Below are positions 4,719 through 33,500 of a DNA stretch of 56,070 nucleotides, piece after piece. This DNA is from a virus: IMG/VR virus record IMGVR_UViG_3300017598_000787, positions 1 through 56,070 of that record; one strand, given 5' to 3'. A program made the position numbers and the translations under genes. The notes under the pieces are model-generated. The model saw only the letters and a list, made by a program, of their open reading frames with translations. It searched no databases and was not told the DNA's origin. The stretch's first letter is position 1, and every line of letters starts with the position of its first letter.

Positions 4719-4912
4719 GATGTTCCCCTTTCAATTTTTAAGTTTTAAAGTGTCCCATGGATCAAATCTTTATTTCTGTTGAAAATTTTTCAGCGAAGAT
4801 TTGTTATAAGGATCCCATGGGGAAAAGTAACCCCAGGAGGACGCTGTTCGGTTGAGAGTATGCCAGGTGTGTCACAAGTGTGTCGTGATAAGTTATTGTA
4901 ATTACTATATAT

Positions 4913-4939
4913 GTCATACTTGTCATACTTGTCATACTT
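4913..4939. repeat. Three tandem 9-bp iterons with AT palindromic flanks
   Basis: GTCATACTT occurs three times head to tail (4913, 4922, 4931). On each side are near-complementary AT blocks: TTACTATATAT on the left and ATATATAGTA on the right, so the array sits inside an inverted repeat. Related GTATGACA and GTGTGACA words lie around 5035 and 5098. Confidence 0.85.
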
Positions 4940-4966
4940 ATATATAGTATTAATATAATCTTTAAT

Positions 4967-4994
4967 TTGCGTAAATTTGAGCGAATTCACGCAA
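4967..4994. other. Hairpin in the candidate origin
   Basis: TTGCGT (4967-4972) pairs with ACGCAA (4989-4994); a second AATT/AATT pairing continues the stem after one mismatch. An A-tract follows on the plus strand, so it is not a terminator there. It could be a primer-start or regulator site. Confidence 0.5.
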
Positions 4995-5126
4995 GAAAAA
5001 AAAATATAGTAAAAAAAGTAAAATAGGTGTGCCAAGTATGACACGCTTGTATCCTTAACAAAAACAGATACTTGTAACGACACACTTAAAAATGTAGGTG
5101 TGACAAGGTGGATCGTGTGTGCCGTA

Positions 5127-7514
5127 TTAAAATGGTAGTTCTTCTTGTTCATCTTCAGTATCCCATTCTATTTTAAATTTAAATTGCTTATCGAACTCAC
5201 TCCGGCACATTGCCAACTCCTGAAATTTTCTTGTTTTTTCCCTGTGTGTTCCGCTTGTTTCTCTTCTCACTTTAATGCCAGGACATATCTTTTTAATAAA
5301 AATTCCGAATTGAGTTGGTGAAAGTGGAAAGCGTTCTTTCATTTTGTCAACGAAGATCAGGTAATCCTCATACTGCTCTTTGTTTTTGACTTCATTCCAG
5401 GAGTTCGCATAATCATTGTTATCATCCCGTTCTGACAACAGATCCCCTTCTTGCAACCGTTCGTACCAATATTGCATTTCAGTAGACATTGAATGTATTT
5501 TCTGTTCGAATAACCCTTTGGTCTGTTCAAAGGTTCCAAGATCCACATCAGAGATATCCATTTTTAACAGGTCATACAGCATTGCTTGCAAGCCTCCTTT
5601 GCGATACATCTGCTGCATGACCTGTTTAAAATATGGTTTATCCCCCTGTCTTTTATCGCTAACATCAAGGACACAAAAACGTCTTTCTGCAATATTTGCA
5701 GGGACCACCCAATCATTATTAGATGCCATAACCAGATTGATATTGTTTTTAACTCTGATAATATCAACGCCTTTCTGTTCAATTGCCAGATATGGTTCAG
5801 TGATAATGCTTTTTAAAACGCCCTCACTTTTCTTGTCACCAGCCCAGAAACCTTCATCAATAAAAACAAGTATCTTATTGGTTAGGTGAGAGTTGAACCG
5901 TCCAGCAACTTGAGACGCATGAGAAACAGGCAAAAAGTGGTCCCCGAAGAAATCACCGAGAGTATTAACAAAAACACCCTTACCTATTCCTTGGCCCCCT
6001 TTCAATACAATCGATGTTCCTGGCCTTACACCACCGGGTTGCTGAACGATCCGCGCAACCCACGCTATAATCCATTTTCCCATGGATTCATTGCCATCAG
6101 CGATTACTTCATAAATATGGTCTTTAAAATACCCCCAATCTCCCTTGGATGGTTTGACTGACAACCCTTTCCAGATGTTGTAATACCCTTCAAGTTCTGT
6201 TGTAGTCCTTTCGCTCCCGGTCGGTTCAAAAACAATGCCTTTATATTCCCTCCGACACGGGTCATTTATCCATATTTTGCTTAGTGTCTTTTTCTTTTTC
6301 GGGTCGAAAGGGTCGGTTGTTTTTTTATTGGAATACATTGTATTAAAATCAGGTACACTCAAAAATCCCAAGTCAAGCCCCCCATCCATACTCTTACCCT
6401 CGTTCATAATTCTGACCTTTGACCCGATACGGATAACAGCATGCTTTTTATTCATTTTTTTTACGATATCATTTGCATTGTCAGCGTTTTTTTTGTCGGC
6501 AGTTTTAGCGGATATTTCATCTCTGATCTTGTTCCCTGCTTTTTGGGCTTCTTCCCAAACCCCTGCTTCTTTTAAAATGTGAATTATTGTTCCTCTGGTA
6601 CTGCAATTCCTGCCGTCTTTAATGCCTTTTCCAGTTGTGAACGATTCCCACCTTTTTATAGTGTCGGCTCTGTTTTTATATTTTTTAGATTTTTGGGACC
6701 ATTTATCAAAGATTGACCACCCCTCATTAGACCCACCAGTTTCATGGTGTAGGGCAGCCCCGATGGTTATCCAATTATCCCGATCATCAACCCAGTCCGT
6801 CGGCAAAAATTTTAACCAGGATGCAAGTTCTTTAACCCCTGCCCGGTCTGCCATTTCACCGCCCATTTTAATATCTGATAGGTCGAAATCTTCTGCCCCC
6901 TCTGGGTGATTGTTTTTTTTATTTTCTCCCCTTGTCCAACCGTTTTTTTTTGCGAGAGTGTCGAATTTATCCTCAATCCCTGATAGGTCTATTCCATCCA
7001 CAACTGGCAACTCTGATTGTTCGATAGATAAAACTGAATTATTTTTCACCCACTTGTATTCCTCTTTGGTATCAGGGTGGATGCCAAAGACTAAAAAATA
7101 TTGATCCCCTGGCGATAGGAATTCTATTTCATGTTTTTCCCCGGATTGATCAAACCAAGTATTTTTCCATTTCTTTTTTATATCTGACTCAGGTGAAACC
7201 GGGATAAGAAATTTTGGTGCTAACCCAATCCTGATAGGTGTGTTGTCTTGAATGTTTTCTCTGATGTATTTTATAAGTGCGTTCGACACAGATTTCTCTT
7301 TTATATCGAAATCAAGACCACCGATCCCGGTTAAAGCAATTCCACCCGCCCCTTTACCATTTGCGGCCCATTCTTGAACTTGTTTCTCCGTGATATCGAC
7401 TTGCCAGGATTCCCCCTGGGACATAAAAGGGATCTTACTTTTTGGTCGGATAGGGATAGGCTTATATCCCTTTTTATAAAGTTTAAGAGCTAAGTCCTTG
7501 TAATATTGTACCAT
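5127..7514 (-). CDS. Primase-helicase (PrimPol, PriCT-2, SF3-like/DUF5906)
   Basis: A 795-residue replication protein. Residues 1-200 look like a bifunctional primase-polymerase (AEP) domain: GGIALTGIGGLDFDI carries the DxD metal motif (67-70), followed by IRIGLAPKFLIPV. Residues about 225-320 fit a PriCT-2 domain (WITIGAALHHETGG ... WDKWSQKSKKY-type repeats). Residues about 450-640 are an SF3-like helicase: Walker A GGQGIGKG near 507, acidic motif VFIDEG near 551, sensor ASNND near 597 and arginines AERRF near 610. Such proteins prime and unwind DNA at phage and plasmid origins; the iteron-like region directly downstream fits this. No phage DNA polymerase was found, so host polymerase is probably used. 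The stop TAA directly precedes the repeat region. Confidence 0.9.
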   Translation of the reverse strand: MVQYYKDLALKLYKKGYKPIPIRPKSKIPFMSQGESWQVDITEKQVQEWAANGKGAGGIALTGIGGLDFDIKEKSVSNALIKYIRENIQDNTPIRIGLAPKFLIPVSPESDIKKKWKNTWFDQSGEKHEIEFLSPGDQYFLVFGIHPDTKEEYKWVKNNSVLSIEQSELPVVDGIDLSGIEDKFDTLAKKNGWTRGENKKNNHPEGAEDFDLSDIKMGGEMADRAGVKELASWLKFLPTDWVDDRDNWITIGAALHHETGGSNEGWSIFDKWSQKSKKYKNRADTIKRWESFTTGKGIKDGRNCSTRGTIIHILKEAGVWEEAQKAGNKIRDEISAKTADKKNADNANDIVKKMNKKHAVIRIGSKVRIMNEGKSMDGGLDLGFLSVPDFNTMYSNKKTTDPFDPKKKKTLSKIWINDPCRREYKGIVFEPTGSERTTTELEGYYNIWKGLSVKPSKGDWGYFKDHIYEVIADGNESMGKWIIAWVARIVQQPGGVRPGTSIVLKGGQGIGKGVFVNTLGDFFGDHFLPVSHASQVAGRFNSHLTNKILVFIDEGFWAGDKKSEGVLKSIITEPYLAIEQKGVDIIRVKNNINLVMASNNDWVVPANIAERRFCVLDVSDKRQGDKPYFKQVMQQMYRKGGLQAMLYDLLKMDISDVDLGTFEQTKGLFEQKIHSMSTEMQYWYERLQEGDLLSERDDNNDYANSWNEVKNKEQYEDYLIFVDKMKERFPLSPTQFGIFIKKICPGIKVRRETSGTHREKTRKFQELAMCRSEFDKQFKFKIEWDTEDEQEELPF

Positions 7515-7555
7515 AAAGCGACACCCCTATAGGCGGCACCAAAAAACAATGGGGA

Positions 7556-7735
7556 TTAATTCGGGAATACGTCCTCATGGTCAGTATCCTTTTCAGATTC
7601 AACAGAACTATTTTTCACAAACTCATTAATAATTTTTTGAATTTGTTGTGTTACGCTTCGATATTCTGTTGCAGCAATTTTCTCCATGTTTTTTAGTTCA
7701 TCACCTTGTAGCTTGATTGTAAAAGTTTTTTTCAT
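7556..7735 (-). CDS. Ribbon-helix-helix repressor of the 31-bp array
   Basis: A 59-residue protein beginning MKKTFTIKLQGDELKNMEKI; the first strand (TFTIKL) and two helices (DELKNMEKIAATEY; VTQQIQKIINEFVKN) fit the Arc/MetJ ribbon-helix-helix fold, with an acidic tail (ESEKDTDHEDVF). Its ribosome-binding site AAAGG lies inside the first copy of a 31-bp repeat array (7739-7855) that contains palindromes, so the protein very probably binds that array and controls itself and the primase gene, which starts 42 bases beyond its stop. The role is inferred from fold and context. Confidence 0.75.
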   Translation of the reverse strand: MKKTFTIKLQGDELKNMEKIAATEYRSVTQQIQKIINEFVKNSSVESEKDTDHEDVFPN

Positions 7736-7738
7736 GAT

Positions 7739-7855
7739 TGCCTTTAAATGTTTTTCTATTATAGAACATTGCCTTTAAATGTTTTTCTATTATAGAACAT
7801 TGCCTTTAAATGTTTTCCTATTATAGAACATTGCCTTTAAATGTTTTGTCCAAGA
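7739..7855. repeat. 31-bp operator/promoter repeat array (about 3.7 copies)
   Basis: Units start at 7739, 7770, 7801 and 7832, each 31 bases apart; three are complete and the fourth is partial. Each complete unit contains the palindrome TTCTAT-T-ATAGAA, which on the minus strand gives a perfect TATAAT, plus flanking AATG/CATT and the word AAAGGCAAT, which serves as Shine-Dalgarno for the RHH gene at 7735. The 31-bp period is close to three helical turns, so sites face one side of the DNA. The fourth copy overlaps the stop of the 7837-8034 gene. Confidence 0.9.
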
Positions 7856-8034
7856 TTAACTATGTTTTTGTTATCTTTAATCATGTTTAACTGTATTAAA
7901 TATCGTTCTTCTATTGCCGAGATAAATTTGATATATTTTCCACACTCTTCGCAGGTAAGTTTCTTGTGTGGCCCTGATTGAGAAACACTAAAAACTGTTC
8001 CGGCACAATGGTTGCTTTTTCTGGTAAACTTCAT
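7837..8034 (-). CDS. Small zinc-binding phage protein
   Basis: A 65-residue protein with HCAGTVFSVSQSGPHKKLTCEECGKYIKF spanning residues 9-37 (written in parts: HCAG, SGPHKKLTC, CEECGKYIKF). The pattern H/C ... SGPHxxLxCxxCGKxIKW/F is a well-known tiny phage family of unknown function. Its start overlaps the helicase stop (ATGA). The last codons lie inside the fourth copy of the 31-bp repeat, which suggests the array grew from this gene's 3' end and the next gene's leader. Confidence 0.8.
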   Translation of the reverse strand: MKFTRKSNHCAGTVFSVSQSGPHKKLTCEECGKYIKFISAIEERYLIQLNMIKDNKNIVNLGQNI

Positions 8035-9395
8035 ACCTTCCCTTTTATTTTTATATATCGTTTTAAGGCATCAATAGTGGCGTTCTGCCCGTCTGATTTA
8101 TGTTTAAGTGCATCAATCACAGCTAAATCAACCGTATTTTTACAGGCGATAGTATGGATAAAAACTTTTTTTTTCTGGCCTTGCCGATACACCCTGGCAT
8201 TCATTTGTAATGTTCTTTCCAGGGACCAATCCGGTGATATCCAAACCAGGACGTTGCCACCAGATTGTAAATTCAAACCATGCCCCACGCTCATCGGGTT
8301 TGCACATAAAAGGCAAATTTTTTTAGCATTCCATTTTTTGATGATTTTTTGACTGTCTTTTGCCGTGGTTGAACCATCTATAAATTCAGCATCAGGAAAC
8401 GCCCGGCTAAGTAATGACCGTTCAAATTTAAACTGGAAAGCACAAAGGATATTGGAGTTTGTGCCATCAACTATTTCTTTTAATGCTTCTATTTTTTCCT
8501 GGTGTAAAAGTTTATATTCCTTGCCATCCTCAAGATATAATGCGCCTGCTGTAACCTGTCTTAATTTTGATGATAGAACAGCGGCATTGGCAGCGGTTAT
8601 AAAATCGTCATTGATTTGCAAAATAAATTCTTTTTCAAGCTCAATGTATTGATCTCTAATTTTTTTTGGCAGATCGACTATAATAGTGTTTTGAATACAC
8701 GCTGGGAGTTTTAAATAATCCTTTGATTTTAAAACTATGGCTAAATTTTTAACCCTGCTTTCTATCTCTTTTCTTGCTCCGGGTTTTAGATCCCAATTAT
8801 ACCCCATGTAATCACTATCGTAATATTGCCGTTGGAATTTCCAAAATGATGTCCCGAATCGTTTCCCCTGATCGAGTATAAACGTCTGAGAAAATAATTC
8901 TGTGAGGTTACCAGATGGGGAGGGGGTTCCTGTAAGCAGAATTACTTTTTTGAACGACTTGATAATCTTTTTAAGCATCTTAAATCGTTTAGTTTTGTGA
9001 TTCTTAATCATACTGGATTCATCTAAAACTAAAACTTCACATGGTTTATGTAGTTTCTTATCTATTATATAAGGTAGGGATTCGTAGTTGGAAAAATAAA
9101 AAGGTACTTTCGGGAGGAAGGGTTGTTTACCTTTGCCATGAATAATGTGGTATTTAGTACCTGTTAAATGCTCCCATTTTTCAAGTTCATCCGGCCAGGA
9201 GTTATAAACTACTCTGAGTGGTGCTAAAACGAGAGCTGATTTAAACCCTTTCTCTTTTTGCAGATAATTAATAGCCGATAAGGTTGATACTGTTTTTCCT
9301 AGACCCATCTCAGCTACAACAAAAGCACTTTGTTTTTTTAATATAAAATTTGCTATATCTTTTTGGTATTGATGCAAGTGAGATAAGTTAAGCAT
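8031..9395 (-). CDS. SNF2-family DNA helicase/translocase
   Basis: A 454-residue SF2 protein. Motif I is AEMGLGKT (28-35), motif II LDESSMIKN (124-132), motif III LLTGTPSPSG (about 153-162), and the second RecA domain has MSVGHGLNLQSGG and the arginine-finger motif NARVYRQGQ near the C-terminus. The compact form without extra domains is common in phage replication modules next to a VRR-NUC nuclease, as here (9388-9675, overlapping by 8 bases). It probably remodels recombination or replication intermediates in the cytoplasm. Confidence 0.93.
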   Translation of the reverse strand: MLNLSHLHQYQKDIANFILKKQSAFVVAEMGLGKTVSTLSAINYLQKEKGFKSALVLAPLRVVYNSWPDELEKWEHLTGTKYHIIHGKGKQPFLPKVPFYFSNYESLPYIIDKKLHKPCEVLVLDESSMIKNHKTKRFKMLKKIIKSFKKVILLTGTPSPSGNLTELFSQTFILDQGKRFGTSFWKFQRQYYDSDYMGYNWDLKPGARKEIESRVKNLAIVLKSKDYLKLPACIQNTIIVDLPKKIRDQYIELEKEFILQINDDFITAANAAVLSSKLRQVTAGALYLEDGKEYKLLHQEKIEALKEIVDGTNSNILCAFQFKFERSLLSRAFPDAEFIDGSTTAKDSQKIIKKWNAKKICLLCANPMSVGHGLNLQSGGNVLVWISPDWSLERTLQMNARVYRQGQKKKVFIHTIACKNTVDLAVIDALKHKSDGQNATIDALKRYIKIKGKV

Positions 9396-12530: not shown

Positions 12531-12740
12531 TCATATTACTTCTACCTCATCTAATTGTTCAAATGCTTGCCTTAGTTCTTTTGGAGTTGCCCGTTTCCAC
12601 TGTGAAATTGATTTGCCTGGGAATATATCTGAAAGTTTCTCTGCTATTGGCCAGGACACTTTTCTTTCGCCGTTGAGCAACATTGAAAGGTATTGTTCAG
12701 TGATTCCGAATGTGTTTGATATGAATTGCCTGTTAGTCAT
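12531..12740 (-). CDS. Cro-like HTH repressor
   Basis: A 69-residue protein. FISNTFGITEQYLSMLLNGER (6-26) is a Cro/CI-type helix-turn-helix; the rest (SWPIAEKLSDIFPGKSISQW) completes a single compact XRE domain. It is the first gene of the leftward early operon and faces the divergent repressor at 12862. No Shine-Dalgarno precedes the ATG; the promoter at 12748-12776 places the predicted transcript start at or next to the start codon, so translation may be leaderless. It probably binds the GTTAAA operators. Confidence 0.82.
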   Translation of the reverse strand: MTNRQFISNTFGITEQYLSMLLNGERKVSWPIAEKLSDIFPGKSISQWKRATPKELRQAFEQLDEVEVI

Positions 12741-12747
12741 GTTGCTA

Positions 12748-12776
12748 ATTTTAGGTTAAACTTTAACCTAAGTCAA
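12748..12776 (-). promoter_or_regulatory. Early leftward promoter with operator in the spacer
   Basis: On the minus strand TTGACT (12776-12771) is 17 bases from TAAAAT (12753-12748). The spacer is filled by the inverted repeat GGTTAAA-G-TTTAACC, so a bound repressor would block both boxes. Only seven bases separate the -10 box from the ATG of the Cro-like gene at 12740. Confidence 0.8.
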
Positions 12777-12848
12777 GTTTTTTTAACAAAAAGTTAAACA
12801 ATGCCTAAGACACGGTAATTATTAGCCTTTTTTAACCTTGTCGTTAAA
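12751..12848. promoter_or_regulatory. Three-part operator of the lysis-lysogeny switch
   Basis: Three inverted repeats share the half-site GTTAAA: TTAGGTTAAA-C-TTTAACCTAA (12751-12771, perfect), TTTAAC-N5-GTTAAA (12782-12798) and TTTAAC-N6-GTTAAA (12831-12848). Further single half-sites lie at 12864, 12906 and 12919, inside the repressor gene. The layout recalls the three operators of lambda OR between cI and cro. Confidence 0.75.
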
Positions 12849-12861
12849 GAGAAGATAAACT

Positions 12862-13443
12862 ATGTTAAAAATTATGGAAAATGAAGAAGAAATATTTAGG
12901 GCCTGGTTAAAAAAACACGTTAAATATGATCGTGTTATAACAGGAACTAAACTGGCAAAATTAATTGGTGTCCCTGGGCCAACAATCACGGCATATCATT
13001 CTGGAAGAATGAATGATAACGGAGAACGTAAATTCACACGGATTCCGTACAGTGTGCGTAAAAAAATATCAGAGGTCACAAACACGCCATACGAAGAAAT
13101 CCTAAAAGCCGGTCGTGCAGAACTCGCCCCATACACCACGCCGGATGTGCTGTCAGAAAAAGTATCAGACATGGAGGATGCCCTTAAAAAATTAACGGCA
13201 GAATCAAAAAACCGCGCGATTAACGACCTGGAAGGGCACCATATATCAAAGCATCAGAAGTTGGTTTTAGAATTCTCTCAAGCAGAACTTGCTTTCGACA
13301 TTAACCACAAATTAGTGGAATTAGAGAGACTCGCCCCAACGGAGTTAGAAGAAATCAACGATATTATTGATATAAAACTCCGTAAGTTTCGGAGGCTGCC
13401 AGGAAAGGCGTTGGGGGAAGAGGAAGACACTCGATCAGCTTAG
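12862..13443 (+). CDS. HTH repressor-like protein (CI analogue)
   Basis: A 193-residue protein divergent from the Cro-like gene. Residues about 27-50 (GTKLAKLIGVPGPTITAYHSG) form a helix-turn-helix; a second helical region, HHISKHQKLVLEFSQAELAFD and ELERLAPTELEEINDII, resembles the C-terminal helices of prophage HTH regulators that lack a self-cleaving peptidase domain. I see no Ser-Lys LexA-type dyad, so induction would not follow the RecA route. The start has only a weak GAGAAG site. GTTAAA half-sites extend into its first codons, consistent with autoregulation. The next frame downstream (from 13386) may once have been joined to it. Confidence 0.75.
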   Translation: MLKIMENEEEIFRAWLKKHVKYDRVITGTKLAKLIGVPGPTITAYHSGRMNDNGERKFTRIPYSVRKKISEVTNTPYEEILKAGRAELAPYTTPDVLSEKVSDMEDALKKLTAESKNRAINDLEGHHISKHQKLVLEFSQAELAFDINHKLVELERLAPTELEEINDIIDIKLRKFRRLPGKALGEEEDTRSA

Positions 13444-13502: not shown

Positions 13503-14096
13503 ATGCCCGAAGATCTCAAAAAAACATACCATATTCTAGGCCCGGAAAATGCCCGATTGATAAAATCAGTGCTGCCTCATGTTGACTATGACAAACCAGC
13601 TATTTTAAATCTATCACCATATTTGTTAAACGGTAGCACAAAAATTTTAAAAGCAGAAATGCACATCAGCAAACATAAAACCGGCTATAAATTAACAATT
13701 TGGCGCAAGCAGCAGCAGCAGCAGCAGCAGCAGCAGGGTGATAAAATTATAAAATACCCTGTGTCAAGTTCTCGTAATGTTTTTCAGCTTGATCAGTGGG
13801 GAACCGTTTTGAAAGTTCGTGACAACTCAAAAACAATCGCAGATCCGGTGGGAGTTAATCTTTTCAGTTGCTTGTTGTTTGGTTATCATTTCCCAGTGCG
13901 GCGAGCCATGAATAAGGTTTTATTTTCCGTCAAACACGAACCGAAACCCATCGAGTATAAATTCAAGCTAAAAAATCACAAAGGCGAATGGGAAATCAGA
14001 CACAAAACAGGAACTATATATTATAATAGTATTGATGGCACATTAATATTCGATGTGAGGCGAATCACGCCCCAGGAAAAACGAAAAAGCGGTTAA
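13503..14096 (+). CDS. Possible PAS-like regulator with polyglutamine tract
   Basis: From the ATG at 13503 the protein has 197 residues. The same frame is open back to 13386 and encodes a plausible continuation (EPDNVVIIDRHGYVTQSRM) typical of a PAS-like strand-turn-strand, but no ATG, GTG or TTG is found there, and the ATG at 13503 has no spaced Shine-Dalgarno. The frame is -1 relative to the repressor, which it overlaps by 58 bases. Later features are TGYKLTIWRK, nine consecutive glutamines (near residues 70-78) and a basic C-terminus. Either translation is frameshifted from the repressor, the start is unusual, or a mutation has split an HTH-PAS protein. Confidence 0.55.
   Translation: MPEDLKKTYHILGPENARLIKSVLPHVDYDKPAILNLSPYLLNGSTKILKAEMHISKHKTGYKLTIWRKQQQQQQQQQGDKIIKYPVSSSRNVFQLDQWGTVLKVRDNSKTIADPVGVNLFSCLLFGYHFPVRRAMNKVLFSVKHEPKPIEYKFKLKNHKGEWEIRHKTGTIYYNSIDGTLIFDVRRITPQEKRKSG
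13710..13736 (+). repeat. (CAG)9 trinucleotide repeat
   Basis: Nine uninterrupted CAG codons encode nine glutamines in the 13503-14096 gene. The tract is perfect and in frame, so changes in copy number would alter the protein length without a frameshift. Pure trinucleotide tracts of this length are unusual in compact phage genomes. Confidence 0.97.
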
Positions 14097-17536: not shown

Positions 17537-17869
17537 TTGACCGGACCCAGACCAAATAAATTATTAACCCCCGAAGATGTTTCTTCACTGTTGCGAATTT
17601 CCGTAAAAACAGTGTACAAACATCAAAGAAAGCTATATGGCTTTCATCCAGCAGGATTAGGAGTCTTACGATTCAGGAGGGAAATAATATATGGGATTAT
17701 GGAAGGACAAGACCCGAAAACATTGGTGTTATCGTTTCCAGTATCAGGGTCAGGGATATTACGGTCGGGGCTACAAAGACCGGCGAAGCGCAGAGGTAGC
17801 AAGGTCAAAAAGAAGAAAACAGGTAAAAACACCGATCCAAACAGGCATGGCTTATTCGGAGGCGGTTAA
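17537..17869 (+). CDS. Excisionase-like HTH protein
   Basis: Starts at a TTG, 8 bases after AAAAAGGA; no better start is available. LLTPEDVSSLLRISVKTVYKH (9-29) is a MerR/excisionase-type winged helix start, with a strand RFRREIIYGIM (46-56). The 110-residue frame runs 179 bases into the integrase gene in another frame, giving a basic C-terminal tail (KRRGSKVKKKKTGK) that may be only a by-product of the overlap. Xis and Int genes often overlap, so it is probably the directionality factor. Confidence 0.7.
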   Translation: MTGPRPNKLLTPEDVSSLLRISVKTVYKHQRKLYGFHPAGLGVLRFRREIIYGIMEGQDPKTLVLSFPVSGSGILRSGLQRPAKRRGSKVKKKKTGKNTDPNRHGLFGGG

Positions 17870-18770
17870 TAAATATCTCGATCATGCAGAAAGAAGATTT
17901 GTTAAAGCAGTATATAAATATAAAAAGTATGTCTACCAGCAATTTTTTATCTTTTTGGAAAATGATTTCCAGATAGATGAACTGACAACACCAACGATAA
18001 AGGCGTATCTTGAAACACGGCACAGCAATAATAATTATAATGTTCACAGAAGGGACTTATCAGCATTTTTTACATATGCAAAAGATATTTTGGAAGTTAT
18101 TGACCGTAACCCAATAAAGAAAATAGAGAAGATGCCACACACACCAAAAAAGAAAGTTATCCCCCAGGAATCAGATGTAATTAAACTGGTGCTGGCAGCA
18201 GACCCGAAAACAGATGAAAGGGATTTGTTGCTTGTCCTATTAAACACTCTGGCAAGAATTGATGAGGTTTTAAGACTGACCTGGGATGATGTGAATTTTG
18301 ATAAAAGGATCCTAACAAAGACAACTAGAAAAACCAAAGACGGATCCTGGAAAGAAGTGCCTGTAAAAATTAATGATGAGTTATATGATATATTGTGGAA
18401 AAGATGGGAACACCGAGAACAAGATATTTGGGTTTTTTATAATAAGAGATATGATGATCGATATCAGCACAGACCAAAATTCATGAAAGGTTTATGTAAA
18501 CGAGCTGGAATTATCCCACATTTTGGTTTCCATACACTCAGGCATTTAATGGCCTCTTTATTAAATGATAACCCCAAAATATCATATAAGACAATTCAGA
18601 ATATGTTGGGCCATGCCGACCAGAAAACAACAGAAATTTATTTACATGAATTAAAGGATGCTGACACGGTTGCAGTAGACTCAATTTCGGGAAAATTTAC
18701 ACAAAAAAATGAAAAGGTGCCGCCAAAAAGTGCTACCAAAGACAAAAAAAGGATTCCAACGAAACGCTGA
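17691..18770 (+). CDS. int: Tyrosine integrase
   Basis: A 359-residue phage integrase with AGGAGG 9 bases before the ATG. The N-terminus (GLWKDKTRKHWCYRFQYQG) is an arm-binding domain, residues about 50-140 a SAM-like core-binding domain, and the catalytic residues are R189 (LARIDEVLRL), K214 (TTRKTKDG), H281 and R284 (HTLRH), H308 (LGHAD) and Y317 (TTEIYLH). All are present, so it should be active. It would insert the phage at a tRNA-Pro gene through attP at 19394-19619. The C-terminal tail is unusually basic (KDKKRIPTKR). Confidence 0.95.
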   Translation: MGLWKDKTRKHWCYRFQYQGQGYYGRGYKDRRSAEVARSKRRKQVKTPIQTGMAYSEAVNKYLDHAERRFVKAVYKYKKYVYQQFFIFLENDFQIDELTTPTIKAYLETRHSNNNYNVHRRDLSAFFTYAKDILEVIDRNPIKKIEKMPHTPKKKVIPQESDVIKLVLAADPKTDERDLLLVLLNTLARIDEVLRLTWDDVNFDKRILTKTTRKTKDGSWKEVPVKINDELYDILWKRWEHREQDIWVFYNKRYDDRYQHRPKFMKGLCKRAGIIPHFGFHTLRHLMASLLNDNPKISYKTIQNMLGHADQKTTEIYLHELKDADTVAVDSISGKFTQKNEKVPPKSATKDKKRIPTKR

Positions 18771-18948
18771 AACCCTTGGTATTAAATGGTCGGGACGGCA
18801 AGATTTGAACTTGCGACCACTTGTCCCCCAGACTTACGGTCGGGTTTTGAATAGCCTTGTATATAGGCTTTATATGGGGTGTTCATTCTACCCGGTGCCC
18901 TGTTTTTTGCACATTTACCATAAAAGCCGCCGCCAAAAAGTGCTACCA
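18719..18948. repeat. 20-bp direct repeat bracketing the int-int2 junction
   Basis: GCCGCCAAAAAGTGCTACCA occurs at 18719-18738, inside the tail of the intact integrase, and again at 18929-18948, where it joins the truncated second integrase. The exact match, 210 bases apart, suggests recombination or duplication produced the junction. Confidence 0.85.
18787..18831 (-). other. tRNA-Pro(GGG)-like 3' remnant
   Basis: Read on the minus strand this gives an anticodon loop CTGGGGG (anticodon GGG), a 3' anticodon arm ACAAG, variable loop TGGTC, a perfect T-arm (GCAAG-TTCAAAT-CTTGC), CGTCCCG and ACCA. The 5' half is absent and the anticodon stem breaks, so it is not a tRNA gene. It is an old integration-site remnant, or a second attachment core, located just 3' of the integrase and opposite in orientation to the one at 19504. 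Confidence 0.75.
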
Positions 18949-19398
18949 GAAATATTAAGATTGAAATGGCAGGACGTTAATTTTACAAAAAAAACAGTTA
19001 CAAGGTGGACCAGAAAAAGGAGTTCCGGTGCGTATGAACCGATTACTTGCCATATGAATGAAGGATTGTATAGATTATTGAAAGCGCGATGGAATAATAG
19101 GAAAAACGAAAAGTATGTGTATTTTAATACAAAAACTAACAATAGATTTAAGCACCGTCCTAAATTAATGAAAGGACTTTGTAAGAGAGCAAAAATAAAT
19201 CCTGCTTTTGGATTCCATAATATCCGTCATTTTGTTGCAACATATCTGGCAGATGCAGAAAAGATATCAAAAAAATCCATAGGCGGTTTGCTCGGTCATA
19301 AAGCATTGCAGACAACAGAGATATATTTACATTCGACACCTAGTTCAGAAGTAACTGCGCTTGATAAATTATATAAAAAATTCGGTGGTAAAATTTGA
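18946..19398 (+). pseudogene. Truncated second tyrosine integrase
   Basis: The C-terminal 150 residues of an integrase related to the intact one: EILRLKWQDVNF, HNIRHFVATYL, GLLGHKALQTTEIYLH carry His, Arg, His and Tyr of the catalytic set, but the N-terminal domains and the first arginine are missing. Shared stretches such as HRPK(F/L)MKGLCKRA show close relationship. The frame is open upstream to 18709, but that part is the integrase tail in another frame plus the tRNA remnant. It is not expected to recombine by itself. Confidence 0.85.
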
Positions 19399-24241: not shown

Positions 24242-24529
24242 GTGTTATCGTTAATCTTAGGGCTCAAACAATTCAGAGGGGATACCATCAATTTAATTTT
24301 AGAAATATTATTCATCGCTATCCTATTCGGTTCGTTCCCTGTCGCATTCATTTTGCATTCTGATGAAGAATACAAAATTCTCGCTTTTGTAATAGTTGCA
24401 ATAGCAGTATATGGATTACTGGGTGCCATTGGGCATATCTGGCCCCTGCTATTCCTTGTTCCTTGTGCCTGGTACTTTGCACTGTCACCTTTGTTTAGTA
24501 AAAAACTCAAGAAGCCCTCCGTAAGATAA
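24242..24529 (+). CDS. Membrane protein on the opposite strand (moron candidate)
   Basis: A 95-residue protein with three hydrophobic segments: LILEILFIAILFGSFPVAFI (about 18-37), ILAFVIVAIAVYGLLGAIG (46-64) and WPLLFLVPCAWYFAL (67-81), then a basic end (KKLKKPS). The start is uncertain: GTG at 24242 lacks a Shine-Dalgarno, while AGAGGGG (24276-24282) precedes an ATC 6 bases later. It is the only rightward gene in the late half, between hairpins and the 3' end of the giant gene. Morons of this type often alter the host envelope or block superinfection. Confidence 0.6.
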   Translation: MLSLILGLKQFRGDTINLILEILFIAILFGSFPVAFILHSDEEYKILAFVIVAIAVYGLLGAIGHIWPLLFLVPCAWYFALSPLFSKKLKKPSVR

Positions 24530-27500
24530 CCTTTTTATTGAATGCCCGTTTTAACTTTTCTATCCGTTTTTTAATTTTCTCTTTTCCTTTTTCGGTTTTT
24601 GCCCGTTTTAAAAGGGTGTTCAGTTTTTTTATTCTCGATTCATATTTTTTCGCAGATGTATAAAGCGTGTACACTTTATTCTTGCGTAATTTCTTTTTCT
24701 TTGCCGGATACTCTTTTGCCTGTTCATGCAATCTATATATATAGGTTATGTTAGATCTATAATCAGTTGTGACTTTATATTCTGATTGAGAGCCCAAAAC
24801 TCTTCTAAGCCCAGGTATTTTTGAAGTCTTTAGATCCCCGGACAACGCCCTGATTGGCAGGGAAACTGTATCCGATAGGAATCGTCCGGCCCCGCCTGTA
24901 AAAGTGTCCCAGACTAAATCAAGCGTTTCGGGAGACACATCAACCATGCCGGGTTTTACTTTATTTCCACCGCTGATTGTATTCGCAGCTTTGGCCAGCA
25001 TCTTAGATGTTGGTCTGACAGATCCCCAGTATTTTTCAGAGTCTGGTTCTGGTGTTCGTGAAAACGGGTTGCCCTCTGGCATTAATGGAGAACCAAAAAA
25101 TGTTTTGTTTTCACCAACCTGGACAAACGGATCTCCGACGGTTGGCGATAAAGTTTGCAGGACAGTAGCAGATTGCAACGGGTTAAATGCATCCAGGGCA
25201 GTTGCTAACATTCGGCTTGCACCATCCAGTGGGCTATAATCATCTTTTATCGCAAGATCACCAATCTCAGTACCTAACGCCCAGAATACATTATATCCCC
25301 AGGGCAATGGTATTTTAGCATACTTACCCTTAGTCCCGGGTATCATAAAGATCATGTTTCTTGCTTTCAGGTAATCGTCAACCTGATCATAGTATGGTAT
25401 ATCGTCTTCATCATCGCCGCCCAGTGACCTATTCGCAATGGCCAATATGGTTGCCAGCCCCATGGTGCCACCCAAAATTTTAGCCATTTTCTTAGGGTTA
25501 TTTTTAATCGTTTTAAAAATCCGGGTTGATCCCTGGATGCCTGCATTTGCAAAAAGGTAAAGACTATTTATGACAGGGCCGTAAGCACCTTTCTGGTTAA
25601 AGTTTACAGTCAAACCCTTTGCCATGATTGCGGCCTTTGCCTCTGACATACCAGAATCAATACCGGCCTTAAATGTGGACAGCCTGACCGCATTTTCAAC
25701 AATCGAGTTATAGTCCTCGACAAGCTCAACCAATTTAGCGGCCGCTTTTTTGGTCTTATGTCCTTCCCGGAATAAATCTATCTGGCTTTCAAGTTTCGCG
25801 GCCTTTGTTTCAATATCCTTACCGTAATCGATCCAGCCTATCTTTGCCCCGGATGATTCGTATCGCTTGACTATACTCACCCACTCATGGGAGCCGTCAC
25901 CCTGCATGGAACTGTAAAGACCCTTCATAGCTTTTGGGACATTCTTAAATATCGTTTTCCTCATGTTCGATACTTCTGTATCGGTCAAATTAAAAGCAGC
26001 GGTTTGAAGGTCACGCGCAAGGTTAGAGAAAATAAATTCAGGGTTCCATGTGGTGTTTACTGCGGCAAGTCTTCGGTTTAATTTACCCAAAGCATTTACA
26101 ATCGGACCTGAATTGTGATCATTCCCCTGGATAATATCAAGTATCCGCATGGCATGTATATTGTTTGGACTGGCTGAGACTATATAAACCTTACCATCAG
26201 TTTTAACTTTTATCTTTGGTTCGTCCTTACCAATAAAAAACGCTGGCCTTCTTTCGATATTACCTGACCCGTCATATGTAGCGACTGTTTTGGGTTCTTC
26301 AAAACTCAGGAAGTCTTTGTTCGGGTTCATTTTTATGAACTTGATAAAAGCCGATGCGACCTCTGCTTTTTTGGCATTTATGATTTTTTTCTCATGATTC
26401 ACAAAACCATTCGCCAGAAGATGGACCGCTCTTTTTGTGGACCCGCCCCTGGGATTTACATCAGAACCTAAATTTGTGACACCACCCCCGATACCTTTAA
26501 AAGCGCGTTTCTTTTCATACCCTTCCCTGAACAGTGGAGCATAATAATCGAAAGTACCCTTGATAGCATTATATTCTTCATCTGACAGTCGGCCTGCATC
26601 ATGGGATATTTCAAGACCTTCAGCGTTCATTGCGTCGTACAGCTTTGCAATTTTAGCCATGGTTTTGTTGTCTTTCCACTTGTCAGAAATCTCTTTGGCT
26701 TCATTGTCTCTTGGGTCAATGTGGCCGTCAGTCATGCCTGAAGGTTTCGCGCTAAAAGTTTCCCATTTGTCTCTGACATCGAATTCTCTATCGATCTTAT
26801 CAACTATCTTTTTATGATATGCTATCGATTTTTCAGCTTTTTCAATCTGGCTTTCAGATAGTGGAGAATCAAGCTTTGATTCAGCCCTCATTAATTTTTG
26901 GTTGGCAGCTGCAAAGGTTTCTTCAATTGTACCCAATTCAGATTCTAGGAGGTCTAAATAACTCTCCTGAATCTCATTGGTTGGGAATTGCATCAACTCA
27001 AAATCAGCGTCCATTTCTGCAATCTTATTTTTGAGGCTGTCCCCTCTTTGTGCATCTGCCAGCTTTCTCAGGTAATGCCGCGCATTGGTCAACCTTAACC
27101 TGGCATTGGCCTCTGGTGCATGACGGGCATAAAGGAACTCGTCAACCAACTCCACGGTTAGTTTCCCAAGGCCAATAAGTTGCTTGATTGGCTTGAAATA
27201 TTTTTCTTCTGCTTTATCGATATCACCCTTGGCTTTACTGACTCTTAATTGTTCCTTTAATCTAAAGTCTGCGGCTTCTGGGATATCCTTTTTAATTGCT
27301 TTGTAAAGCTTTGATACCGGACTAAGCTCATCAACAATATTATGCTTGAAATCTTCAACAAAGCTTGAATTGTCCTCTATTGAAAAACCATCGTGTCCAA
27401 GATCTTCGGAGGTTTGATACCTGATATCAGGGTTGTTTTTATCCCATGTGCCTTTGTTGTGGATGGATTTTATTTGGGCGTTATTCGCTGCATCTGGACG

Positions 27501-30500
27501 TACAATTATCCATTTGTCTTCTCCTGATAAATATTCTTTAGCAGACTCGTCTACACTTAACCCTTTGAAGATGTCATTTTTATTTATTATCTTAAAATTT
27601 TCCCTCACGACATCTGGGAGTTCATCTGCTCTTTCTTTTTCCATCCATTGATGGAAAATATGATCTACCATTTCTAAATGTTTCTGTTGCTTAATAGATG
27701 CTTTTTCATACGCCTTTTGCATCACTTTTATATTTTTATCGTAAGCTTCTTTGTATAATATCTTAGCTGATGGAGACTTGTCAGACCAGACCACTATGAC
27801 ACCATCATGACCACCATTATCCAATACAGAGATAAGGCTATCTACATCTTTTGTTTTTCCCTCAACAAATTTAGAAAACTTTTTACCAGAAATAACATAA
27901 GGGTTGTCGAGCCTGATGTGCGCATCTATAATCCCAGCACCTTCAACAATCTCTCCATCTAAAATACTATCATGAAGAAATTCGTCATATTCATCTTCTT
28001 GATTCAGATTTTCTACATCGTAACCTGTCGCATATTCAGATGCAATATACCGATCTGTTGTGAAATAATGCCCGATTCTATTATTTTCAGCACTCCCGTA
28101 TATCCCACTTCCGGTCATTTCTGCACTAAACTTGTTTAAACCACCTGCTGAAAAACTTCCATGAGATGCTTTTAATAAAACCGGTTCTCCTGTTTTATAT
28201 TTGCCATTATCTTTAAGCCCTTTACTCCATTTTTTAAATGCCTTGGTTGCTGTGTTCTTGACTGTTTGGAAGGAGGAGGTACTACTTTGCACACCTGCGC
28301 CCGGTGTGCTGGATGGTTTAGGGGATAGAAATTTATCTCTTGTTTTTTTAGATGCACCAGTGAGGATGATGTTTATATCTTTATTGTCGCCAATACTACC
28401 AGAATAAAGCGTTATTGGGTTATCTTCTTTCCATATTTTTCCACTGTCGCTTGATGAACCAAAAGACCAAGAAGCATATGAATCTTTTTCTAAATTAGTT
28501 ATAATATCGCTTAATGTTGAACCATATTTTCCAGCATCTAGATCAAAACCTGCAACACCGTCATGGTCAACGTGAACCCATTCTTTGGTATGTGGGTCTT
28601 TTCTGACTTCTCCTAGCTTTTCACCACCTTCCCCAAAAAAATGATATAAATCTTCGTGAATTTCTTCAAATTTTAAACTTTGCCCGAAATCTTGTTGAAC
28701 TGCACCCTCAGGGGAATTGTCTGCTCTCTCCCCCATAAATCCAGACCAACCCCTTTCTAAATCATCGCTTATCCTATCTGAAAAACGAATGTGAATTTGG
28801 CCGTCCTCTATAGGGATGTCTTTTATTTTCTTGAATTTCACTCCACCAGCGGGCGTAACGGGGTTTGATTCAGTGGATATGTTGCCCTTCCCCTTTTTAT
28901 CTGTCACTGAAAACTTGCTACCACTATTCGGCTTAGTTTTCAAGCCATTTCCACGATTAATAGCCTCACTCATAGCATGAGCAATAGCACCTTGAGCCTT
29001 ATCAATATCAACCACATACTGTTCCGCTCTGGTTATAAATGATTTGATTTTAGCCACAACTTTTTTAATTGCGCTGAATAACTTCTGAGACATTGAAGGA
29101 GATTTTTGATTTAACTTTGACCAGAATTCAGGACGTTGAAAGCTATCCCCTGCAAAATCGCCTATAAATTCCTCAAGCAAATCCGCTTCTGATAATTTGG
29201 GCAGGTTCGCAAGTTCACGATTGGTTTGTTCTGTAGCAGCGTAAAGGAAATAATCTTTTTTATTATTTTCAAATTCGCTAACAAGATAATCGTAAAGGTC
29301 AGGGTGATTGTTCTTTATCTGGTGGGTTACTTCATGACCGAGTATACCAATTTCTGGAACACCGGATGAAAGATTGATAAATAATTGATCTGTGCCGGGG
29401 TAGGTAAATCCTGTTATATTGGTATCTGGATCAGAGGTTTTAAAGAATACTGTTTTTAATCCGAGTGCTTTTCCAAGTTTGTTAAGGGTTTTTTGTTTTC
29501 GGTTGGCAGGGATTGTGATTTTTGCTTTTGAGGCATCCCCGATGTTTTCAATCGCTGCATAAAGTCTTTGTCTTGTAATGCTTCCGGTTTTAGATAATAC
29601 CTTATCCCGTTTACTTTTACGCAGGGCATCTTTCTTATCCTTCTTTGATTGAAATAGGGCTTTTAGTTTTTCTTTGCCTGATAGTTTAGCATTTTCCCCA
29701 GTTTTGTCAATTGACTTGCCTTGGAATAAGGGCATGCCTTCTTTCAGGGATTTGGATTTCATTTCTTTGGTTATTTCTAAAGCATGTAGAGTTTCAAGCT
29801 CCCCTTTTTCTTTAGCAATTTTCCTTGTCAAATCATCTAATTCTGCATAATCTGAGTCTTCATATGCCTCATTTGTAAAAACATCAATCTCCCCGACCCG
29901 AGACTTACCCCATGCTTTTTTATTGAAGAATTTATTTACTTCGGCGGGTAGGATCTTGTCATAGAAGGCAAGCATTCCTTCGCCGCCTACTTTGAGATCG
30001 ATACCTGACAAAGATCTCTCCCCATGGCGTTTTTTGTCACCTTCACTATTCTGCATTTTTTGAACAATTTCTTTACCAACAACATCTTCAGCTTCTTCAA
30101 AAGTCATTAGTTCATCGAAAGAGTTTATGCGTTCCCCGTCAATAGTTTGAATATCCATTCTAACTTTACCGGGTCCCGGGGTGAAATATAAAATTTCCTC
30201 TATGTGCTTACTCAAATCATACCGATCAGCCTGTTCTGTACCTTGAGTCCAAGCAATAGTATCAAACCCGTTCTCCGCTGCGTATCTGACCATCCGTTTA
30301 AAAGCGAGCATGGGCCATGTTTTTTTGAATGGGGCGTTGGGTGTAGATTGTGAAATGTTATAGTCATTTACATTTTTAAGAGCATCTTTTACTGCTTCAT
30401 TCTCACTCCTACCCCTACCTATAATGACATCACCGGCAGAATCTATCAAACTTCTACTACCCCGTGAATATTTGCCTGGGCCTTTAACAAACCATTTTTT

Positions 30501-33500
30501 AGTCTTTCTAACTGGATTTATAAACTCGTCTGAGAATGTCCCTGGTTTGACTTTGTTTGCCCATTCAACAAATAGTATTGGGTCCCCTACATTTTCAGTA
30601 TTTGGATCTTTATCAAAATAATCTTGAACAGCATCATCAAGTTTTTCTATCTTTTTTTGCTCGGATTCTGACAATCCGTCATACACTTTACTCAACCCAT
30701 CAATTACAGTGTCATAGTGTTTTTTGAAGTTATTACGGATTGTCTTGGCATTAATCGCCATATTTTTTGAATAGACACGGGTATCTTTTGGTAGTTCAGC
30801 TAATGGTCCTGACGCATACCCTTTCTCCCTACCTCTTTGGTGCCAGTCACTTTGGATTTCCTCAACATGCAGGACTTTTTTACCATCAATCTCACGCTCT
30901 GACATTCGGACATGGGCTAATACATTTGGTTCGTCCCAATGGGGGGATTTGTAATCTTGTTTTAATTTTTCTGCTCTTTTACTTGCTTCTGATATGCTAT
31001 TAAAGCCTGTGAGTTTTTTTAATCCGGATTTAGATGGCAACGTCAGTAAAATCTCTTTGTATTTTTTGCCTCCGGGGAGTTGGTAGTCTGAGAATTTTGT
31101 TTGTTCTTCCGGGGTTCTTATTTCTAAATTTAAGCTTTCGGCAATTTCGTCTGCATAACCTTCATGGACTACTTCTCCAAGGTTACCATCTTTATCTTCT
31201 TCAATTATGTAACTATACCCTTCTGGCCCTCTATCATCAAAATAAAGACCGTCTCCAAGTTCATCGTTAACGTATAGTGATATTTCTTCATGTGCTAAAG
31301 ATCTTTCACTCAAATTTTCACCCTTAACAACTTCCTCAACCTGAACCTGATTCTGATCAAGATAATCAAGAGCTTCTTGTTTTGTGACCTTACCTTTTTT
31401 AGAATCAAGCCATTCATTCAATCCAGACCATTCAAGTTCTTCTTTCTTGAACATGCCCTTTTTAGCCCATGAATTAACTTGAGATTTCATCATTTTTGCA
31501 GGGGCATTATTGAGTTTTTTACTAAGGGTTTCCCGCATTTTGGAATACCACGGGGAATGGTTTTCAGGGGATTGGTTCAAGGTTTGGTATTGAGGTCTTG
31601 TCCCATCTTTTCGATATAAAGTCAAAGCCCCAACAGAAGAACCAGATGTAAATGTATCAAGATGGGCGTTGATCGCGTGATACATCTTGACAACAGCATC
31701 TTTTACCTTTTTGTATGCGCTACCAAGTTTACCAGCAACTTTTCCTGAAAAATCTTTAAGGGACATCCCTGCTTTGTAAATACCTGTAACAAGATCTTCA
31801 AGAATATATGCCCTACCGTCTTCTGATGTTACCTTGGTATTTGTCTTCCCTATTGCTTCCCGGATTGTTGTCTTCTCACCCCGACCATCCCCAGACGCAT
31901 CCTCAAACTCCTTCGCTAACCCTGGTATATCTCCCTTAACCGTCGCGCCCATGTCTTTCATGCGTTGGGTTACACGCGATGCCAAATCGTTGTCAAACTC
32001 TATATTCTTGGCATAAATCCAAACGGTTTTGGGTTTCCCAACAACCCCATATCGGGCTGATCTACCGGAAACCTGGGCAACACCGCTTGCTTTCCATGGG
32101 AGATTTAAATTTATTTGGGTTGTAGGATGATCACCGACTGTGTCATGAAGACTGAGCCCAGTGCCGCCTTTTGCCATAGTTGCAACCAAAACCTTTTTGT
32201 TCCCCTTACGCCATTGTGATAAGTTCTTATGAGCCTTGATATCACTAACCGCGCCAGTGTATATAGCTACATTTTCTTCACCGAATGCTTCAACAATTTT
32301 TGATTGTGTTGGTTCTAAGGTAAGGACATCAAACCCTGCATCTTGGATTGCCTTCGCTGCGTTATATGTTACTTTGCTATATGGAGGTTTTTTATCTCGC
32401 AAATCCCGTGGTGTTTGTTCCCACATATCATATGCTGTAATAATACTGTCCGTATCAATCCGCCGTTCAGCTTTAGTTTCAACAAAAATAATTGGGTTTC
32501 GGCCTTCCTTTATTGCAGATTTAGCAGCGGCGATAGCCTGGTCAAGTTTACTTGCCTCAAGTATCCGTTTTCTAAGGTTCACACCATAAGCTGCCAATTG
32601 CCCCTTTTGTTTACCAGGGAGATTATCCATCGCATAATCAAAAGCATTTGTTATGCTGGTATACATACTCACATAATCAGCATCAACCGAGACTTTACTT
32701 ACTTTGACTTCTGATGTTTTAGGATCAAGTTGCATGTCTCGCTGAGTCATCACACCTTTATCTATAAGCCAGTTCCTTGCATCAATAGCGTTTTGTTCAG
32801 AACCCTGACCAGGCCAAACCAAAAACTTGTTGTTTCTGAACTGGCTGGTGTATGCACCATGGTCAATTGCCCAGTCCCAATGACCACTAAAAAAAATATT
32901 TGTCGGTTCAAGGTATGCGGCCTCAACTGGGTTTTCAAATGGTGTGGCTGAAGCAAATATTGAAAATTTTGACTGTTCAATGAAAAGGTTTGCTCTTTTC
33001 CCGACAGCGGATTTCACATTTTTAATATTTTGACTCTCATCAAAAATCAATGCGTCATACGATGCTGGAGTCGTTTTGCGTAGTTTCGCGTATGTGATGA
33101 ATTCAACATTTTTTATATCAAATGCGGAAAGATCTTTCTTGAGTTGGTTGACCAATCCATTATTCATCGTCACATAGAGTATCTTTTTTGCACCATTGCG
33201 CTGCAATTCCTGCATAGCACCACCAAGTACAAATGACTTTCCTGTACCAGCCTCATTCGCAAGGAGAAAAATGCCGGTCTTTTCATTATGCGCTTTTACT
33301 ATCCTTGCAATATCATCGACTTGTTCGTTTAAAACTTTTTGGGGAATTCCGAATTCTTTCCCTTTGTTGATCGCAGCTATTGTGTCTGTTTGGACATACC
33401 TTTCAGGATCATCAAGAGTTCCCATTTTGTGGGTTCCCTTTTTTCTAACAGATCCGGCCACCCCGGGTGATCGTCCATCCAGATTTTCATCACTTGTTCC

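Follow-up and report, generated by a model that had tools for sequence, protein, structure and literature searches.

A 31-bp tandem array upstream of a ribbon-helix-helix gene in a phage replication cluster, and its possible role as an autorepressor operator

The window, by which we mean the whole stretch of DNA that was analysed, consists of one virus record of 56,070 bp. An early gene cluster on its minus strand starts with the genes for a 121-aa protein, a DUF2800 protein, an Enc34-type ssDNA-binding protein and a VRR-NUC-like nuclease. It continues with a SNF2-type helicase gene (8031-9395), ORF65 (7837-8034), a tandem array, a gene for a 59-aa ribbon-helix-helix (RHH) protein, and the gene for a 795-aa primase-polymerase/PriCT-2/D5-type helicase (DUF5906; 5127-7514). 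ORF65 encodes a small CxxC protein and overlaps the SNF2 stop in an ATGA; searches for its relatives yielded only insignificant phage matches. The primase matched PF08707, PF19263, PF05272 and PHROG 1156 (DNA primase), and scored just below the cut-off of family PF09250. The RHH gene (7735-7556) and the primase gene (7514-5127) are codirectional and 41 bp apart, the RHH gene being located immediately upstream. The first-pass annotation placed the array upstream of the primase gene. It is not directly upstream: the RHH gene intervenes, and the array lies inside the cluster, with ORF65 ending in its first block.

Several other features of the window were observed. Two adjacent ORFs at 17691-19398, the longer of 359 aa and the other of 229 aa, are tyrosine-recombinase-like as judged from their sequence, possibly representing one integrase and part of another beside an attachment site. 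An (AGC)9.7 microsatellite (13708-13736) encodes nine glutamines in a 197-aa ORF (13503-14096). Among the structural genes, a single ORF of 4,213 residues (24507-37148, minus strand) contains helicase-like stretches, recognised by eye. A perfect 27-bp tandem duplication, in two copies, is present at 2343-2396.

The array itself was confirmed, at slightly corrected coordinates (7737-7847 on the minus strand instead of 7739-7855). It has a period of 31 bp and 3.6 copies, with 98% matches and no indels, and the minus-strand sequence of its unit is GTTCTATAATAGAAAAACATTTAAAGGCAAT. Four 18-bp blocks, ATTGCCTTTAAATGTTTT (7737-7754, 7768-7785, 7799-7816 and 7830-7847), are interleaved with three 13-bp blocks, and AAAGGCAAT is common to all four 18-bp blocks. 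The first of these contains the TAA stop of ORF65 (7837-7839) and the last the Shine-Dalgarno sequence of the RHH gene. The array is non-coding; no open frame runs through it on either strand, and its period is not a multiple of three. The array is far beyond chance: four copies of the 18-bp block were found against 0.22 expected, even with 3 mismatches allowed, and all four exact copies in the record fall within the array. In the 231 sequences examined (2.1 Mb), it was the sole array with a period of at least 12 and at least 2.5 copies to be non-coding and to end at a start codon; the remaining arrays were mostly open in several frames.

Each unit had been reported to carry a palindrome, a -10 box on the minus strand and a Shine-Dalgarno sequence for the RHH gene, and this was partly confirmed. 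The 13-bp palindrome TTCTATTATAGAA, a candidate operator, is perfect in two units, namely the copy closest to the RHH gene (7754-7766) and the middle copy (7785-7797). One arm position is mismatched in the third copy, TCCTATTATAGAA (7816-7828), and the fourth 18-bp block is without a palindrome. TATAAT is present on the minus strand at all three palindromes (7763-7758, 7794-7789 and 7825-7820), but the fourth block has only the Shine-Dalgarno sequence and no -10 box. AAAGG is repeated along the array, yet only its last copy (7741-7745), which the last block places 5 nt ahead of the ATG at 7735, serves a gene. Use of the internal copies found no support; they lie 2 nt from the ATG of mini-frames of 13-22 codons. 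A second dyad, AACATT-N7-AATGTT, spans the Shine-Dalgarno-like AAAGG at 7765-7783, 7796-7814 and 7827-7845.

Since one unit was copied, its contents count once and not three times. Among 31-mers of equal AT content or shuffles, 3-4% are expected to contain a 6 + 6 palindrome with a gap of 0-1; if gaps up to 7 are permitted, the expectation is 8-13% of AT-rich 31-mers. TATAAT is expected in 4-8% of shuffled units. In a unit this AT-rich, the palindrome and the -10 box are thus each barely or modestly above chance. Two separate dyads in one unit are expected in just 0.2-0.8% (AT-rich 31-mers or shuffles). Elsewhere in the window the palindrome motif does not occur beyond chance, which fits a private operator.

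The 59-residue protein (7556-7735) had been called an RHH protein, and this assignment, to the Arc/CopG type, holds on sequence comparison. The protein aligns without gaps to CopG (41 residues, end to end) and to Arc over most of its length, in both cases beating nearly all shuffles, and its residues 2-47 match PHROG 582 (Arc-like repressor, E = 0.0014). A profile made from the protein and weak genomic hits found the PDB structures of Mnt (E 8e-8), a CopG-family protein, SvtR, pArc/Arc and AvtR. The genomic sequences in this profile are themselves Arc, RHH_1 or antitoxin RHH proteins; as the profile is dominated by these other five sequences, it supports the assignment and does not prove it. 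Pfam and single-sequence searches left the protein without a name, no RHH model being matched in Pfam, and the single-sequence AlphaFold2 model, one long helix (residues 11-42) with a pTM of 0.46, was uninformative as to the beta-strand and two helices of an RHH fold. With the protein as query, no relative was found in the viral contigs or the eight records searched, and a search of 389 genomes of one bacterial class gave weak RHH-type matches only.

That every unit is a promoter, as had also been suggested, was not supported, the -10 boxes lacking a -35. A consensus scan of 7400-8200, which asked for 4/6 or better in each hexamer, revealed no sigma-70 site, and no promoter-like match in the 41-bp gap between the RHH and primase genes. 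The best -35 for the array -10 is AAAACA with a 16-nt spacer, and approximately 0.6% of the window positions (about 650) score as well. Scored with a sigma-70 matrix based on published hexamer frequencies, the sites in the array reached 7.0, versus 12.5 at the best early-operon site. The last unit does have the layout of a compact promoter-RBS (-10, leader of about 20 nt, Shine-Dalgarno, ATG). The best minus-strand promoter match of the early region, TTGACT-17-TAAAAT at 12753, overlaps the palindrome AGGTTAAACTTTAACCT and is likely to be the early promoter; the cluster containing the array is likely polycistronic and driven from this site, which makes a local promoter in the array optional. 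At 12740-12862, divergent cro-like and repressor-like genes are found, with GTTAAA/TTTAAC dyads (AGGTTAAACTTTAACCT) over the 12753 promoter match; judged by this arrangement, the region is a probable lysogeny switch.

Using a profile of primases, two contigs with an equivalent module were found, L015 (56% identity to the window for the primase, 64% for SNF2) and L016 (48% and 61%, respectively). Their gene order matches that of the window up to SNF2, after which the primase gene follows directly, without ORF65, the array and the RHH gene. No RHH match was present elsewhere in these two records, of which L016 is a fragment only. Because it is absent from the two closest relatives, we regard the ORF65-array-RHH segment as accessory and not as a core origin. 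An exact search for the unit in 2.9 million viral contigs gave no other record, a DNA similarity search of phage records gave no match, and no relative carrying a homologous array was found. The SNF2 protein had no match in the 389 genomes at a strict cut-off.

At more distantly related primase loci, small DNA-binding genes are often located just 5' of the primase gene. HTH_17 was found in 20 of 57 upstream ORFs, and two upstream ORFs, at loci L018 and L019, matched RHH families. In the phage contig L019 the RHH gene adjoins the primase gene, and in front of it a palindrome whose arms measure 11 bp overlaps a consensus-like TTGACA promoter. Pamexvirus-like phages have a conserved PHROG 19009 gene (unknown function, RHH-like by eye) just upstream of the primase gene.

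Given the precedents for RHH genes beside primase or replicase genes and the cooperative binding of RHH proteins (see below), we judge the array most likely to be a multiplied RHH operator. We give about an even chance to the explanation that it is an array of operators for an autorepressor, effective through weak local promoters or as a roadblock inside the operon. The array would have arisen when a single intergenic unit of 31 bp was duplicated in tandem, and would serve as a multiplied cis-acting site for the Arc/CopG-type RHH autorepressor encoded with the primase gene. RHH dimers would bind the 13-bp AT-rich dyads that recur every 31 bp, and since 31 bp is approximately three helical turns, the dyads would be on one face of the helix, where the dimers could cooperate along the array. 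Transcription into the RHH and primase genes would be lowered because RHH covers the weak -10 elements in the array; alternatively, the RHH-bound array would block polymerase reading through from the upstream early promoter. The outcome in both cases would be negative feedback on the primase level. The copying of the Shine-Dalgarno sequence would be a by-product, with the last copy alone used.

The two dyads per unit count for this explanation, as do the small DNA-binding genes 5' of other primases and the palindrome-promoter combination of L019. The absent -35, a dyad that alone is not significant at this AT content (3-10%) and the one broken palindrome count against it. The same applies to the nearest relatives, which manage without RHH and array, and to conservation, for which no homologous array was found; in addition, a cluster that is likely polycistronic from 12753 does not need a local promoter. 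The first-pass interpretation of cooperative autorepression is partly supported; neither variation in array length nor the suggested tuning of replication by it found support. A further elaboration, in which the array is an intra-operon rheostat whose unit number sets the read-through block and hence the amount of primase, with slippage allowing quick heritable tuning, is in our view unlikely.

The main rival is neutral duplication: an AT-rich intergenic unit, reaching from the ORF65 stop to the RHH Shine-Dalgarno sequence, would have been multiplied by slipped-strand replication, with -10 box and palindrome being incidental. We regard this as a possible explanation, tentatively held. The copies are 98% identical, as in a young duplication, the dyad and TATAAT are near chance for the base composition, the relatives are without the array, and the window contains other short tandem duplications (2343-2396). 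Against this, the array is placed exactly between ORF65 and the Shine-Dalgarno sequence of a DNA-binding gene, it has two dyads per unit, and it is the only non-coding array of its kind ending at a start codon in the sequences examined.

It is rather improbable that the array binds another phage or host regulator, e.g. the CI/Cro-type proteins encoded at 12.2-13.4 kb. The phage does encode several small HTH proteins; however, the cro/CI intergenic dyads (12745-12860) are of the GTTAAA/TTTAAC type (AGGTTAAACTTTAACCT) and unlike TTCTATTATAGAA, and no second copy of the array motif is present near the cro/CI genes. That the array motif represents copies of a CI/Cro operator was rejected, as the motif differs.

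We also considered a leader function, in which ribosomes that have finished ORF65 would reinitiate on chained ATG...TAA mini-ORFs (MFYNRKTFKGNVL) and be passed to the RHH start, so that the number of units would set RHH translation. An ATG accompanies AAAGG in each block, and the ends of two successive mini-ORFs are about 10 nt or less from the next ATG. However, the spacing between Shine-Dalgarno sequence and ATG is only 2 nt for the mini-ORFs, the third mini-ORF extends 35 nt into the RHH gene out of frame, the RHH gene has its own well-spaced Shine-Dalgarno sequence, and the RNA of the array region folds no better than shuffles (z -1.3), all of which makes this explanation very unlikely. 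A conserved RNA structure at the array was not convincing at this z score.

A candidate origin is located 3' of the primase gene (minus strand, from 5126 down). In the window, AAGTATGAC is present three times at 4912-4939, with an inverted copy at 5034-5043; longer inverted arms are present too, and the segment folds better than shuffles (z -3.2). The segment 3' of the L015 primase has a z of -4.5. Three 9-bp direct repeats lie 190, 193 and 186 nt past the primase stop in the window, L015 and L016, respectively, at an equal place and with an equal period, and their sequences are different. The candidate origin, consisting of these tandem repeats and inverted arms around an AT-rich stretch, runs from 4876-5090 in the window, 6480-6650 in L015 and 6545-6700 in L016. 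Among 123 non-redundant primase loci, 34 have triple repeats (three copies of 9-11 bp, with a period identity of 88% or more) 3' of the primase, and none has them 5'. The count for random control windows, some of which may overlap a primase 3' region, is 14 of 615; AGGTTGGAC, three times 3' of another primase, is an example of such repeats. The comparison points to a feature of wider occurrence, in that direct repeats of 9 bp following the primase-polymerase gene are a candidate origin in many phages and prophages. Their position fits that of the stem-loop origin proposed for pRN1 and BIP-1 (PMC4234260), which argues against the 31-bp array as origin, and we consider the three 9-bp repeats the better origin candidate. 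That the array itself is an iteron-type origin is suggested by its AT-rich direct repeats adjoining a replication gene, but was rejected as highly improbable, since L015 and L016 have equivalent replication genes (SNF2 61-64%, primase 48-56%) without the array and the conserved candidate origin is located 3' of the primase instead.

Returning to the array as a putative RHH operator, three groups of known systems can be compared with the window. In plasmid pMV158, as in the window, an RHH gene lies upstream of a replication gene, and copG and repB are cotranscribed. The pMV158 operator has another sequence and is not arrayed, and binding of CopG has been shown, whereas that in the window is a candidate. 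RepB is a rolling-circle initiator, unrelated to the primase of the window. CopG acts as an autorepressor on the entire copG-repB operon (PMC5717011).

The phage repressors Arc and Mnt and the archaeal-virus regulators SvtR, AvtR and F55 are virus-encoded RHH proteins, like that of the window. They bind cooperatively to imperfect AT-rich repeats, inverted or tandem, of which several lie near their own promoters (PMC5569661). More generally, cooperative binding of dimers to several operator sites is typical of RHH proteins (PMC5569661). None of these viral systems has an operator with the sequence of the window or a 31-bp unit, and the regulated genes are others.

The gene order of the window matches that of the orf56-orf904 pair of the Sulfolobus plasmid pRN1, which together with copG-repB is the best precedent; here too, a small RHH repressor gene immediately precedes the gene for a multidomain primase-polymerase/helicase. 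The two pRN1 genes are cotranscribed, and Orf56 has been proposed to bind its own promoter and to control copy number (PMC3869888, PMC4234260); it has been described as a negative regulator of the replicase (PMC3543421). The arrangement initially proposed for the window, in which the gene of an RHH autorepressor precedes that of a primase-polymerase, is known from experiments (PMC3869888, PMC3543421). In both cases repeats or a stem-loop 3' of the replication gene form the putative origin, proposed as a stem-loop for the replication genes of pRN1 and BIP-1 (PMC4234260). The window differs from pRN1 in that its three palindromes belong to a tandem array of 31-bp units and that this array is part of a phage replication cluster of greater length. 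Moreover, close relatives lack the RHH segment of the window, whereas orf56 is essential in pRN1 and conserved across the pRN family. We would class the window as a variant of the RHH-autorepressor/replication-gene operon, in which the operator array is a putative feature. If this is true, the copy-control logic of plasmids, an RHH autorepressor acting on a replication gene, would operate in the replication cluster of a temperate phage, where the operator, having been multiplied by tandem duplication, could rapidly change in copy number.
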